Position numbers and translations under genes: made by a program
Shown here: piece by piece, positions 14,372 through 37,547 of the stretch
Numbering within the stretch: the first letter of the stretch is position 1
Layout of the letters: the number at the start of each line of letters is the position of its first letter
The notes under the pieces: model-generated
Databases searched by the model: none
Told to the model about the DNA's origin: nothing
The model's input: only the letters and a program-made list of their open reading frames with translations
NCBI GenBank assembly: GCA_003567775.1
Contig: PWYR01000073.1
Coordinates: 1 to 51,638, forward strand
Length of the DNA stretch: 51,638 nt
Direction: 5' to 3'
DNA from: Ignavibacteriales bacterium
Lineage (GTDB): Bacteria; Bacteroidota; Ignavibacteria; T3Sed10-11

Positions 14372-14881
14372 CTAAATTATTATTGCTCCCTCAAGCCCCA
14401 GAAGAAATTCTTTTGTCTTTACACCGGCACTATATCCGACAAGCGCGCCGTTAGCGCCGATTACCCTATGGCAGGGTATAATAATCGGAATAGGATTCGC
14501 CGCATTTGCGCGAGCAACCGCCTGGTACGCTCTCGGGTTCCCCGATTTAATGGCAATATCTTTGTAGGTCATTGTTGTACCGTAATTTATCCGGCGAACA
14601 TTTCGCCACACTTTTTTTTGAAAGGGGGTGCCTAATTGATGTAATGCACAGTTAAACTTCGTCAGACGGCGGTTAAAATACCGATTAATTTCATCAATAA
14701 CCTGTTTATTTCGTGAACGATTCTCCGCTACTTCATCTTCGTCAAAGTGTTTATGCAACCACTGAAAAAAATCTTTCTTGGTTTCTTTGGGAATACTTAT
14801 TTTACAAACTCCGCGTTCTGTTGATGCGACATAAATGATACCGATTTTTGATTCGAAGGAGGTGCAGTATACTCTTGTCAT
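14372..14881 (-). CDS. Methylated-DNA--protein-cysteine methyltransferase (MGMT/Ogt-like)
   Basis: GTPFQKKVWRNVRRINYGTTMTYKDIA...NPIPIIIPCHRVIGANGALVGYSAGVKTKEFLLGLE; PCHRV active site. Confidence 0.95.
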   Translation of the reverse strand: MTRVYCTSFESKIGIIYVASTERGVCKISIPKETKKDFFQWLHKHFDEDEVAENRSRNKQVIDEINRYFNRRLTKFNCALHQLGTPFQKKVWRNVRRINYGTTMTYKDIAIKSGNPRAYQAVARANAANPIPIIIPCHRVIGANGALVGYSAGVKTKEFLLGLEGAIII

Positions 14882-14981
14882 GGTTTATTTAACCGAAGCT
14901 TCAAAAAATATTGCGCGTAAAGGGAAAATAATATACGAAAGATATCGGATTACTGCAAATATATTTTTATAAATTATTCCT

Positions 14982-15794
14982 TCATTCTCTAAACTGGTGG
15001 TGCTCCGTAAAAAATTGTTTATATCCACGCTGCACGATTAAAACAGATGATATCATAACACTCGCAGCAATCATGTACATAACAACAATTTGATATTTTA
15101 CTGCTATAATCGGGCTGGCGCCGGACAATATTTGTCCAGTCATCATACCGGGTAGACTGACTATACCCACCGTCATCAAACTATTAATGGTCGGAATCAT
15201 AGCTGCACGAACCGCAGATGCAACAATATCGGAAACCGCTTCACGCGAAGTGGCGCCGAGGGACAAACGGGCTTCAATGAGCGCCCGTTTACTTCGAATT
15301 TCCGATGATAATCGCTCGGCAGCAAGCGCTACCCGCTGTTTTTCACCTACCGATAAGTCTACTGCATTACGGTTGAGAATATTATCGGATACATTTAGAT
15401 ACCGGAGAAGTTCCCTGCATTTATCCCCGAAGTAGGGAGTATCACTCATATTATTTTTCATGTGCTGCACTGCATATTGAAAATTCGACAAAACCGTGCC
15501 ATCGAACATAATCGGGATCTGGGATACATAGCCGACACGAGTACGAAGCGAACGTACATCGTATGTTGCAATATCTTTGCCGTGAAAGAGAATATCTCCG
15601 TCATCGGGATCGGTAAGCCGGTTAAATAACCGCAATAATGTCGTTTTCCCCGACCCGGACGGACCTAAGATGAGCTGCGGTTCTTTTCCGTTGATACCAA
15701 AATTGATATCGCGTAATACCGGTTCCCCGGACATGGAACTATCGGCGGTTTGTACCGGTTTTCTCTTTGTAACATGTTTAAATTCAAAAAGCAT
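14982..15794 (-). pseudogene. Apparent FetA/FetB-like (UPF0014/YbbM) ABC ATPase-permease in-frame deletion fusion
   Basis: Residues 1-~158: ABC ATPase with Walker A (GPSGSGKTT) and signature (LSVGEKQRVALA), no Walker B or H-loop; residues ~159-270: second half of a FetB-type permease (EIRSKRALIEARLSLGATSREAVSDIVASAVRAAMIPTINSLMTVGIVSLPGMMTGQILSGASPIIAVKYQIVVMYMI). Confidence 0.75.
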
Positions 15795-16455: not shown

Positions 16456-16920
16456 TTAGTTCATCTCTTCTCCTTCGTTTAATGCGTCTACCCGTAGCGT
16501 CGCTACATATCTAAATTTTGATTCGGCATGATCCGATAATGGGTATGGATCTAATTGAAGCAATGTGATTCTATAACCCCAGAATTCCTTTTGCCGATGT
16601 CTTTGCTTACTGTAACGATCAACAAGACCGGGAATAGGAACCTCAACCAGGTCTCCTAATCGGTCTTCACGCTCAAGAGCAACGAGTATGACTGCTTCAC
16701 CGTCGTAAGCACAGAGAGCGTCTTCCGGACAGCGTGTATCTTTTTTCAGGTCAAGGAATCTAACCTCCGTACCATCCTCCAAGCTTACCGTGTGATCATA
16801 TACAACCCTGAATTCCTGCCCGAATGGTATGCCGGCGTCCGGGTCACCCGGAGTGCAAGAATACAACTGGAGTATGTACAAACTTAAAACAAGCGCTATT
16901 GCATATACATTAATTTTCAT
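16456..16920 (-). CDS. Putative lipoprotein/secreted protein with RCP-x4-C-x-x-(D/E)G motif
   Basis: Signal peptide with LYSC; DTRCPEDALCAYDGEAVILVAL. Confidence 0.6.
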   Translation of the reverse strand: MKINVYAIALVLSLYILQLYSCTPGDPDAGIPFGQEFRVVYDHTVSLEDGTEVRFLDLKKDTRCPEDALCAYDGEAVILVALEREDRLGDLVEVPIPGLVDRYSKQRHRQKEFWGYRITLLQLDPYPLSDHAESKFRYVATLRVDALNEGEEMN

Positions 16921-24236: not shown

Positions 24237-25514
24237 TTATTCCCATCGTACCGCTTGCGCCGGCAGAATCTCCGATGCACGTTTCGCCGGGTATAACGCG
24301 GCAAGCGAAGATAATAGCAGCGCAGCTCCGCCGACGGCAAAAAAATCAAGCATCCGTATTTCAACCGGTAATGCGGGTATGATATAAACTGTCGGGTCGA
24401 GCGAAAAAAGATGATATCGAATTTGCAAATAACATACGATGTATCCAATGATGCTGCCAAGGATCGATCCGATTAACCCCACGAATACTCCTTCGAATAA
24501 GTAGATACGAACTACCTCGCGTTTGGTAGCACCCATTGCTTTCAATACACCAATATCTCGTGTCTTTTCAATAACCGACATCGTCAACGATCCGAGAATG
24601 TTAAAGGTTGCAACCGCGATAATTAGCGACAAAATAATATATGCCGCCCATCGTTCGATTTCCATAACCGAATAAAGATCGCGGTGCAGATCGTACCAGG
24701 TATTGACCTTGTATTCATCTCCAAGCTTACTTTGAAGATCATATTTTACACTATCGGATTGTCTGAAATTATGTAATCTAACCTCGACCCCGTTTATCTG
24801 TCCCCTTAAATTATACAAACTATTTGCACTCTGTAATGAAACAAACGCATAATTCGCATCATAATCCTGATTCATCGATTCATAAATCCCTGTTACAATA
24901 TACCGTCGAAGAATCGGCTGACCGAACCGTAAAAGCGCTGCTTCCATTCCCTGCGGACTGATAACAGTTACCGTATCGTCCATTACGACATTTAATCGAT
25001 CGGCAAGCCCTATTCCCACAACAATACCATCGGAACCGTCGGGAAGTTCAAGCTGTAAGGAGCCGAGAACTATCGATTCTTCGACGCCGGACACGTCTGC
25101 AATTTTTTCTGGATCCATACCACGGATGTTTATTATCCTATTTATATTTTGAACAATAATCATTGCCCTGCCCCCGATAACAGGTGAGTATGCCTCGACG
25201 CGTTCGTCAACTTCTACTGCCGCAGTAACCCGATCATAATCCTGTAAAGCGATTCCTCTTTCCGGTTCGATGCGGAGATGGGGATCAAAACCGACCAGAA
25301 TATCGGTTACAAGACTATTAAAGCCGTTGAACACCGAAAGTACAATTATAAGCGCCGCGACACCAACAGTGATACCGATGATCGAAATAAGCGAAATAAT
25401 TGTGATGAATCGAATTCTTCTTTTAAAAATACCGATCCCGAGATCGATGCCTTCCGACCTGCCGGACCGGTGAGAAAATAGATATCGACTCGCTATGAAA
25501 CGTTCAAATTTCAT
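24237..25514 (-). CDS. LolC/LolE-family FtsX-type ABC permease
   Basis: FERFIASRYLFSHR...GITVGVAALIIVLSVFNGF...SLTMSVIEKTRDIGVLKAMGATKREVVRIYLFEGVFVGLIGS. Confidence 0.92.
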   Translation of the reverse strand: MKFERFIASRYLFSHRSGRSEGIDLGIGIFKRRIRFITIISLISIIGITVGVAALIIVLSVFNGFNSLVTDILVGFDPHLRIEPERGIALQDYDRVTAAVEVDERVEAYSPVIGGRAMIIVQNINRIINIRGMDPEKIADVSGVEESIVLGSLQLELPDGSDGIVVGIGLADRLNVVMDDTVTVISPQGMEAALLRFGQPILRRYIVTGIYESMNQDYDANYAFVSLQSANSLYNLRGQINGVEVRLHNFRQSDSVKYDLQSKLGDEYKVNTWYDLHRDLYSVMEIERWAAYIILSLIIAVATFNILGSLTMSVIEKTRDIGVLKAMGATKREVVRIYLFEGVFVGLIGSILGSIIGYIVCYLQIRYHLFSLDPTVYIIPALPVEIRMLDFFAVGGAALLLSSLAALYPAKRASEILPAQAVRWE

Positions 25515-26743: not shown

Positions 26744-27394
26744 TCAATGAGAATGGCCGAGCATAAGAATAATACCGGCCGTTAATGCAATAATTAATCC
26801 CGCGATTGAGTGTGTATACCGTTCGAGCGACTTAAGATTAACGAATGATGCGCCCATCCAGGCAAAATACACAAGCACCATCATAACAATTACGGTTACC
26901 AATGAAAAAATCGCACCGATAACGACAACACCTAACCAGCTCTCGCCTACCGCTAAAAACATTAACGGAATAAGCGGCTCGCACGGACCGAGAAAAAATA
27001 CGGCAAAAACCGTCCAGATGGTAACTGTTTTCTTTGCACTCAGCTTTTCGTCAATATCGTGCGAGTGACTATGGGGTTTTCGGGCATGTTTTAATCCCCA
27101 AAGTGCATATGCAACTCCAAAACCGATTAACAGCCAAATAGCCATATGATGCCGCCAATGTTCGAAACCTTCGATCATCGTTGCCACACCGAGCGCTATT
27201 CCGATAGCGCCGAGCAGTAAGGAAGAACCGACATGTCCGAGTGCACCGGCAAATGTTATCAACATCAATCTGCCCTTTGTCCAATTTCGCGCTCTGCCCA
27301 GCATTACGAACGGCATCCAGTGATCGGGAGCTAATGCATGAAAAAATGCGATCGAGAAAGAAGCCCCCATTAATGCAATAAAACTTTCACTCAT
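26744..27394 (-). CDS. UreH/NiCoT-like metal transporter (His-rich)
   Basis: FFHALAPDHWMPFV motif, HARKPHSHSHDIDE His-rich loop, six TM-like segments, C-terminal GHSH. Confidence 0.75.
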   Translation of the reverse strand: MSESFIALMGASFSIAFFHALAPDHWMPFVMLGRARNWTKGRLMLITFAGALGHVGSSLLLGAIGIALGVATMIEGFEHWRHHMAIWLLIGFGVAYALWGLKHARKPHSHSHDIDEKLSAKKTVTIWTVFAVFFLGPCEPLIPLMFLAVGESWLGVVVIGAIFSLVTVIVMMVLVYFAWMGASFVNLKSLERYTHSIAGLIIALTAGIILMLGHSH

Positions 27395-35500: not shown

Positions 35501-35995
35501 TTGCTTTGCCGCGTCATAGTTGCCATCGACAAGATGTGCGGCAACCACCCCGCCGGCGCATGCCGAAAGACAGAGAATACCTTCGGAATACTCCTTCAGC
35601 AGCTCCACGTCAATGCGGGGTTTATAGTAGAAACCTTCAATGTGTCCGAGGGTACAGAGTTTAATTAGATTTTTATAACCGGTATTATTTTTTGCAAGGA
35701 GAACAATATGATGGTACACATTTCGCTTTCCGCTTCTACCGTTGCCGTTTTGCTCCGACTTGTCAAACCGGCTTCCTCTTGTCACGATATAAAATTCACA
35801 GCCAAGTATCGGTTTAATCCCGGCTTTCACTGCTTTTTTATAGAATTCGATTATACCAAACATAACGCCGTGATCGGTTAATGCGAGCGCTTTCATATCG
35901 TGACGCTTTGCAGCGTTGATCAGATCATCGGTCGTGGCTGCACCGTCGAGCAAACTGTAGTGTGAATGGTTATGTAAGTGGACAAATTCAGCCAT
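32528..35995 (-). CDS. dnaE: DNA polymerase III alpha subunit
   Basis: 1155 aa; PHP domain (LHNHSHYSLLDGA), GPGRGSAAGSIVAYALGIT, PDIDVDFSDRKREKVIQYV, HAAGVVI, C-terminal OB fold. Confidence 0.98.
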   Translation of the reverse strand: MAEFVHLHNHSHYSLLDGAATTDDLINAAKRHDMKALALTDHGVMFGIIEFYKKAVKAGIKPILGCEFYIVTRGSRFDKSEQNGNGRSGKRNVYHHIVLLAKNNTGYKNLIKLCTLGHIEGFYYKPRIDVELLKEYSEGILCLSACAGGVVAAHLVDGNYDAAKQAAIIYKEIFGDDFYLEIQNHEYAPEKYVLEGMPRIASELGLKLIGTNDIHYIEKDHAIPHNVLLKIPDANSTNAQDIDMLRYGTDQIYFKSAEEMHEVFKEWPEAIESTLEVAEKCNVELDLKTNHMPMFPIPNDAGVNTLDDYFEKLTLEGLRKRYAEITPEIEQRVRRELDIVKKMGYSGYFLIVYDFIRAAREMDVLVGPGRGSAAGSIVAYALGITNVDPLEYGLLFERFLNPDRVSMPDIDVDFSDRKREKVIQYVRDKFGQESVSQIITFGTLSSRAVIKDVGRVLGIPLSTVESITKQIPVFQGRVTPIKEAINTIPELKWLKTSNDPKIRDLIKISTVIEGMNRNVSTHAAGVVIAPGPVSDYVPLYKTPQTELMTQYNMKDLEDAGMLKMDFLGLRTLTVIEDTIDMIKERYGKQIDPDDIPKDDAKTLELFSKGLTVAVFQFESRGMQEYLKKLKPESINDLVAMNALYRPGPMSMIDDFINRKFGRKEIQYIHPDLEPILKETYGIIVYQEQVMKIASQIAGFTLAAADIMRRAMGKKDKALMAEQKKAFVAGAAEKGTPKRTAIEIFDLIDKFASYGFNKSHSVAYSVLAYQTAYLKAHYPAEFMAATMTSEINNTDKIVLFIDECRKLGLNVLPPDVNESDWNFVVSDDGVRFGLAAIKNVGTGAVQEIVRIRNEGGLFKNIFEFCARVDLRTVNKKTIESLIQAGAFDTIEMNRAQLLAVVDRAMTYGQSQKKYELAGQENLFELGGNEGNAGTQYPALPDVEPWNEAEKLSREKSLLGFYVSGHPLKKYEKEAEAFSTAKFGETELVKFESNVRVCGIVTAVRTKIDRKGNTMAFVTMEDFTGKGELIVFSDPYKNHKDILYPDSLVIVEGKAQPTDDTLKILPSVIYPLSEAHTHYAKHVIISIDVNKIKEETIKKLRLIIEQNEGNCSCTFIVEGVEVSTPKKWYSRRYLVNPNDTFIQEVNQLLGENSVHVN

Positions 35996-36122
35996 TTAAA
36001 AACACAAAATTATTTTTAGCAAATTTTTAGATATTATTTATTTCATTTATATGGTTACTAAGGTAATAAGGTTCATAATCTTTTACATTATAGTACCTGT
36101 TGAGATCCTCATATTCTTAATA

Positions 36123-37547
36123 TCACACAAAATTAAACACCATTATTTTCGGTTCCGTCATGGCCTCGATTGCGTAACGTATCCCTTCTCTGCCGAATCC
36201 GGAATCCTTCACGCCGCCATAGGGCATAGTATCGATCCGGTACGTCGGGAAGTCGTTAACAATCACTCCGCCTACATGTATCTGATCATAGGCATAGAAA
36301 ATATTCCGGAAATCGTTTGAGAATATTCCGGCTTGGAGTCCGTACTTGCTGTCGTTGACGCCGTCAATTGCTTCCTGAATATCGCGATAGCGGTGGATAG
36401 TTGCTACGGGACCAAACACTTCCTCGCTGTATACTCTCATTGACGGCAGCGTATTCGATATCAGCGTCGGTTCGATAATCGATTCTTTTCGATTACCGCC
36501 GAGCAGTGCAGTCGCTCCGCCCTGTTTTGCCTCCGCAATCCATGATTCAACACGATCTGCCGCGGGCTTATCAATCAGGGGACCGACGGTAGTTTCCTCA
36601 TCTAACGGATCACCCAGTTTTAATTCTTTAACGGCTTCTTTGAAACGGAGCAAATAGTCATCATATATGTCTTCGTGTATGAACATCCGCTGGACCTTAA
36701 TGCATATCTGTCCGCCGTATGCATACGCGCCGAATACTATTCTTTTAACGGCGTAATCAAGATTCGAGGTACGATCGACAATGACGCCGGCATTCCCGCC
36801 TAATTCCAGCAACACCTTCTTTTTACCGGCTTTATTTTTCAATTCCCAACCTACCTCCGGACTGCCGGTAAAGCTGAGCATATTAAACCTCTCATCCGTA
36901 ACGAGCTGCTCTGCAACTTCGATGCTGCACGGCAGCACATTAAATGCGCCTGCAGGCGCTCCGGCATCGAGAACAATTTGCGCCAGCCGCAAGCCGGTTA
37001 TCGGCGCTTGCGGAGGAGGTTTTAATACCATTGTATTGCCTGCGGCAAAAGCCGGAGCAAATTTATGTGCTATTAGATTTATCGGATAATTAAACGGGGA
37101 AAAGCCGCTAATGGGTCCGATTGGAAAACGCCTTGTCAACGACCACCGCCGCTCCGAATGTGAGGCGAGATCAAGCGGCATAGTTTCGCCGTATATTCGT
37201 TTTGCTTCCTCCGCAGCAGTTGTAAATGTAAAGATCGATCGATCGACTTCAACATACGCCTGCGAGATCGGTTTTCCCGATTCTTCAGCTATAGCCATCG
37301 CTATTTCTTTACGATCTTTCTTTATTCGATCTGCGATACCCAACAATATCCCGGCGCGTTTGTACGACGGCATTTTCTTTGTCTGTTCAAAAGCTTCGAC
37401 GGAACAGGCGATTGCATCTTCCATATCCTGTGATTGCGCCTGACAAATGTCCGCTATAACTTTCCCGGTGTACGGATTGCGGTTCGGCTCTTTCACGGAT
37501 GATGATCGCCATTCATTTCCGACGAGAAATTTTTGTTCCTGTGCCAT
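36123..37547 (-). CDS. NAD(P)-dependent aldehyde dehydrogenase
   Basis: SGFSPFNYPINLIAHKFAPAFAAGNTMVLKP, LLELGGNAGVIV, GGQICIKVQRMFI catalytic Cys, EEVFGPV. Confidence 0.95.
   Translation of the reverse strand: MAQEQKFLVGNEWRSSSVKEPNRNPYTGKVIADICQAQSQDMEDAIACSVEAFEQTKKMPSYKRAGILLGIADRIKKDRKEIAMAIAEESGKPISQAYVEVDRSIFTFTTAAEEAKRIYGETMPLDLASHSERRWSLTRRFPIGPISGFSPFNYPINLIAHKFAPAFAAGNTMVLKPPPQAPITGLRLAQIVLDAGAPAGAFNVLPCSIEVAEQLVTDERFNMLSFTGSPEVGWELKNKAGKKKVLLELGGNAGVIVDRTSNLDYAVKRIVFGAYAYGGQICIKVQRMFIHEDIYDDYLLRFKEAVKELKLGDPLDEETTVGPLIDKPAADRVESWIAEAKQGGATALLGGNRKESIIEPTLISNTLPSMRVYSEEVFGPVATIHRYRDIQEAIDGVNDSKYGLQAGIFSNDFRNIFYAYDQIHVGGVIVNDFPTYRIDTMPYGGVKDSGFGREGIRYAIEAMTEPKIMVFNFV

Follow-up and report, generated by a model that had tools for sequence, protein, structure and literature searches.

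The question raised by this locus is whether an open reading frame that joins half of an ABC ATPase to half of a permease is a new kind of protein, the remnant of a recent deletion or an error in the assembly. The ORF (270 aa plus stop) lies on the reverse strand at positions 14,982–15,794 of the window, that is, the whole stretch of 51,638 nucleotides analysed here, a single contig from a genome of 2.28 Mb (168 contigs, 68% complete). Its translation and Pfam searches bore out the strand, the coordinates and the mixed ATPase and permease content given in the original prediction, and the profile search of each half suggested there matched both families. ABC_tran covers residues 27–159 (profile positions 1–121 of 137, 1.2e-21) and UPF0014 covers residues 154–262, with the second half of the profile only (positions 134–242 of 242, 3.3e-44). 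Thus, residues 1–158 of a FetA-like ABC ATPase are followed by the C-terminal part of a FetB/UPF0014 permease, and the switch of families falls at residues 155–158 (VALA, first base 15,332), where it had been placed.

The fetA-derived part (15,333–15,794, reverse strand, residues 1–154) is 75% identical to FetA of the congeneric genome G002 and retains the Walker A motif GPSGSGKTT, the helical region and an LSGGQ-type signature, LSVGEKQR. The fetB-derived part (14,982–15,320, reverse strand, stop included) runs to the C-terminus with the SLGATS region and the last predicted transmembrane segments, and is 94% identical to the permease half of G002 FetB. Comparison with the G002 parents also confirmed which elements are absent: the fused protein has neither LLDEP, the Walker B motif with the catalytic Glu (FetA 169 in the parent), nor the TH of the H-loop (FetA 204 in the parent), and FetB residues 1–140 are gone. 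It therefore fails to qualify as an ABC ATPase by the presence of Walker B with catalytic Glu, D-loop and H-loop, and as a permease by a full-length domain of 242 Pfam positions. By crude hydropathy, the hydrophobic segments at FetB 1–122 are lost and about two predicted transmembrane segments, the last ones, are left; a search by sequence for a solved FetB structure found none.

The two best NCBIfam families for the fused ORF were FetA (NF007601, residues 20–158) and FetB (TIGR00245, residues 155–267), with scores far below the respective cut-offs (101 vs 292 and 100 vs 410), as one would expect of halves and of a divergent lineage. Since the intact FetA and FetB of G002 are also under these cut-offs, the name FetAB is given here by family and the substrate is putative. 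The fetAB genes of E. coli specify an iron exporter (PMC10874397, PMC10782999), the overexpression of which lowers intracellular iron (PMC10874397). The window resembles this iron-efflux ABC transporter (FetAB, also YbbL/YbbM) in that both halves of the ORF are closest to FetA and FetB and the gene pair has its usual form in the intact relatives, but differs from it in lacking the 709 bp in which fetA ends and fetB begins.

The adjacent and co-oriented intact genes that had been predicted for close relatives were indeed found in three congeneric genomes (G002, contig C162; G004, contig C415; G005, contig C76). In all of them fetA (253 aa) and fetB (about 256 aa) are whole and at the same position, fetB overlaps the end of fetA, and the pair is flanked by the same two genes as the fused ORF. 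In the window these are, both on the reverse strand, an upstream gene of 154 aa, a putative lipoprotein by inspection (16,456–16,920), and a downstream gene of 169 aa with a PCHRVIGANG motif, an Ogt-like methyltransferase by inspection (14,372–14,881). In two further genomes, G001 and G003, fetAB was not found; the upstream flanking gene lies near contig ends there, hence these genomes are uninformative. The window and G002 are otherwise colinear over 14,293–37,447, and the 709-bp loss is the sole large loss on the window side within these 23 kb of alignment. The same alignment holds an AT-rich stretch of about 120 bp (35,995–36,127) that is missing in G002, and two neighbouring insertions of 35 and 11 bp relative to G002 (25,413–25,473).

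The breakpoint lies in a junction zone at 15,321–15,334 of the reverse strand, GGGTAGCGCTTGCT, which comprises the VALA codons and two further bases. As the original prediction supposed, an ALA-coding stretch at the junction is common to both genes: around VALA, FetA of G002 reads LSVGEKQRVALARTL, FetB of G002 reads GNSMNGVALAAERLSSE and the window protein reads LSVGEKQRVALAAERLSSE. VALA is one of only two tetrapeptides that the G002 proteins have in common. The distance from one VALA to the other is exactly 709 bp in G002, G004 and G005, and in each of them fetB lies in the +1 frame; because 709 = 3 × 236 + 1, its loss keeps the frame, and a single 709-bp deletion explains the fused ORF. The proposal of a microhomology deletion that preserved the frame thus fits exactly as to deletion and frame, although the missing length is 709 bp and not the roughly 600 bp estimated. 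As to the microhomology itself, fetA and fetB match in 10 of 14 bases around VALA in each relative, with seven exact shared bases in G002 (GGGTAGC). Such pairing is good and not unique, as some 300 of 530,000 position pairs match equally well. Since the repeat is imperfect and not exceptional, a deletion between short repeats is plausible and not proven.

The original prediction had reasoned that many homologues with the same fused architecture would point to a stable family, and no such homologue was found. An ORF-by-ORF comparison of 80 diverse bacterial loci and the loci of the relatives showed both halves in one frame in the window only; in 60 relatives, as in 396 genomes sampled from the phylum (E <= 1e-20; this sample shares some members with the relatives), the permease half and the ATPase half each had their own, separate matches and no fusion was seen. 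Among the genome-contig hits, four (L067, L085, L100 and L105) looked at first as if they covered both halves, but in each the ORF is an ordinary fetB and fetA lies upstream as a gene of its own. With separate fetA and fetB alone in the relatives, the diverse loci and the phylum sample, we reject a stable fusion family; as far as could be seen within the sets searched, the fusion is private to the genome of the window. There was no other match to UPF0014 in the bin of the window, which is 68% complete.

How old the deletion may be was estimated from the changes on the lineages leading to the window and to G002, with G004 and G005 as outgroups. In the fetA half the window lineage carries 8 private amino-acid changes and G002 carries 7 (23 are ambiguous), in the fetB half 2 and 3, respectively. 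The pN/pS of the fetB half (0.07) is that of the ogt-like gene (0.07) and close to those of a STAS-like gene and a 429-aa gene (0.08 each). Purifying selection appears normal in both halves and there is no excess of change on the window lineage. With a synonymous divergence of about 1 per site between the window and G002, many replacements would be expected after a long neutral phase: the 2 changes in the fetB half (95% Poisson upper mean 6.3) stand against about 130 expected on a fully neutral branch. As a rough estimate, which assumes equal branches and neutrality after the deletion, no more than about 5% of the branch would have been free of constraint. There is no sequence decay, and the sole sign of pseudogenisation is the deletion itself. 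Normal constraint and the absence of excess change imply that the deletion is either very recent or absent from the cells altogether.

Among the three readings offered at the outset, namely a recent pseudogene, a non-hydrolysing chimera and an assembly collapse, these data favour the recent pseudogene and make a functional chimera very unlikely. One could argue that the cells carry an intact fetAB and that the fused consensus came from a chimeric read, from a minority variant with the deletion or from a bad path in the assembly graph; the window is, after all, a single contig of a fragmented and incomplete genome, and a pure artefact would be expected to lack sequence decay as well. However, the two breakpoint regions share no more than about 14 bp (in G002, 7 bp exactly), and the usual k-mer sizes of assemblers are well above this length; both flanks are colinear with G002, and the aligned 23 kb show no further large loss on the window side. 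Moreover, comparable deletions are found in another gene of the genus. This gene, which encodes a membrane-like protein of 216 aa without a Pfam match, is whole in the window (26,747–27,394, reverse strand) and in G003, whereas in G002 (C162:13154–13279) it lacks about 513 bp, removed in frame from between two stretches that code for MGASF. In G005 (C254:9296–9397) it bears another in-frame deletion, which leaves the first 8 and roughly the last 30 residues; no match to it was found in G001 or G004. Within this census, which covers aligned stretches only, in-frame internal deletions, with different endpoints in the two genomes, thus seem to occur in the genus, which suggests that such events are real. 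The short shared sequence and these deletions in two separate relatives make an artefact the less likely reading, and we consider it improbable; we infer that the sequence reflects real cells.

The preserved frame, which has a 1 in 3 chance of arising, and the constrained look of both halves could also be taken to mean that selection keeps the fused protein as a membrane-anchored, non-hydrolysing nucleotide-binding protein. But this constraint is indistinguishable from the state inherited from before the deletion, the architecture was seen nowhere else in the genomes and loci searched, and Walker B and the H-loop are absent while only about two predicted transmembrane segments remain, so that we regard such a role as very improbable. 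That the fusion would be expressed and kept in this form, perhaps as a regulator or a dominant-negative remnant of the iron exporter, born in one step from overlapping genes, we hold to be more doubtful still. A refinement of the pseudogene reading supposes that the fusion protein is useless and that the in-frame form was favoured because translation continues and the ogt-like and MFS genes downstream are spared polar effects. Both deletions in the 216-aa gene are likewise in frame with both gene ends kept, and a search of the stretch that separates the fusion from the ogt-like gene yielded no terminator-like site. On the other hand, no more than three events are involved, any of which would stay in frame by chance one time in three, and a weak promoter-like match lies at 14,959–14,930, such matches being no more frequent in the region than in shuffled sequences. 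We therefore think this refinement unlikely; speculatively, the preserved frame could help the translation of the downstream genes, co-transcription being hypothetical.

The fused ORF is thus most probably a fusion pseudogene that arose by one recent 709-bp deletion in an overlapping fetA–fetB operon. The deletion would have run from the VALA codons just past the ATPase signature to those midway through the permease. Its probable mechanism is independent of RecA, namely slippage or annealing at short direct repeats that match imperfectly. Deletions between short direct repeats that do not depend on RecA have been documented in E. coli K12 (PMC5426353). The window resembles the deletions described there in that the segment between two short similar stretches was lost and one copy was left; it differs in that its repeats are short and imperfect, and the mechanism is only a probable one.

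ABC ATPases need Walker B, the catalytic Glu and the H-loop for hydrolysis. With these elements and the first 140 permease residues gone, no transport by the fused protein is to be expected from the known ABC mechanism: the product would be unable to hydrolyse ATP normally, over half of the permease is missing, and the transporter has most likely been lost in this lineage. If real, the locus is a clean snapshot of transporter loss by a single deletion, with close parents known from the relatives, and it cautions that a tidy fused ORF need not mean a new protein family. We see in it an ordinary, recent loss of a gene rather than a novel type of protein, and its wider importance is small.
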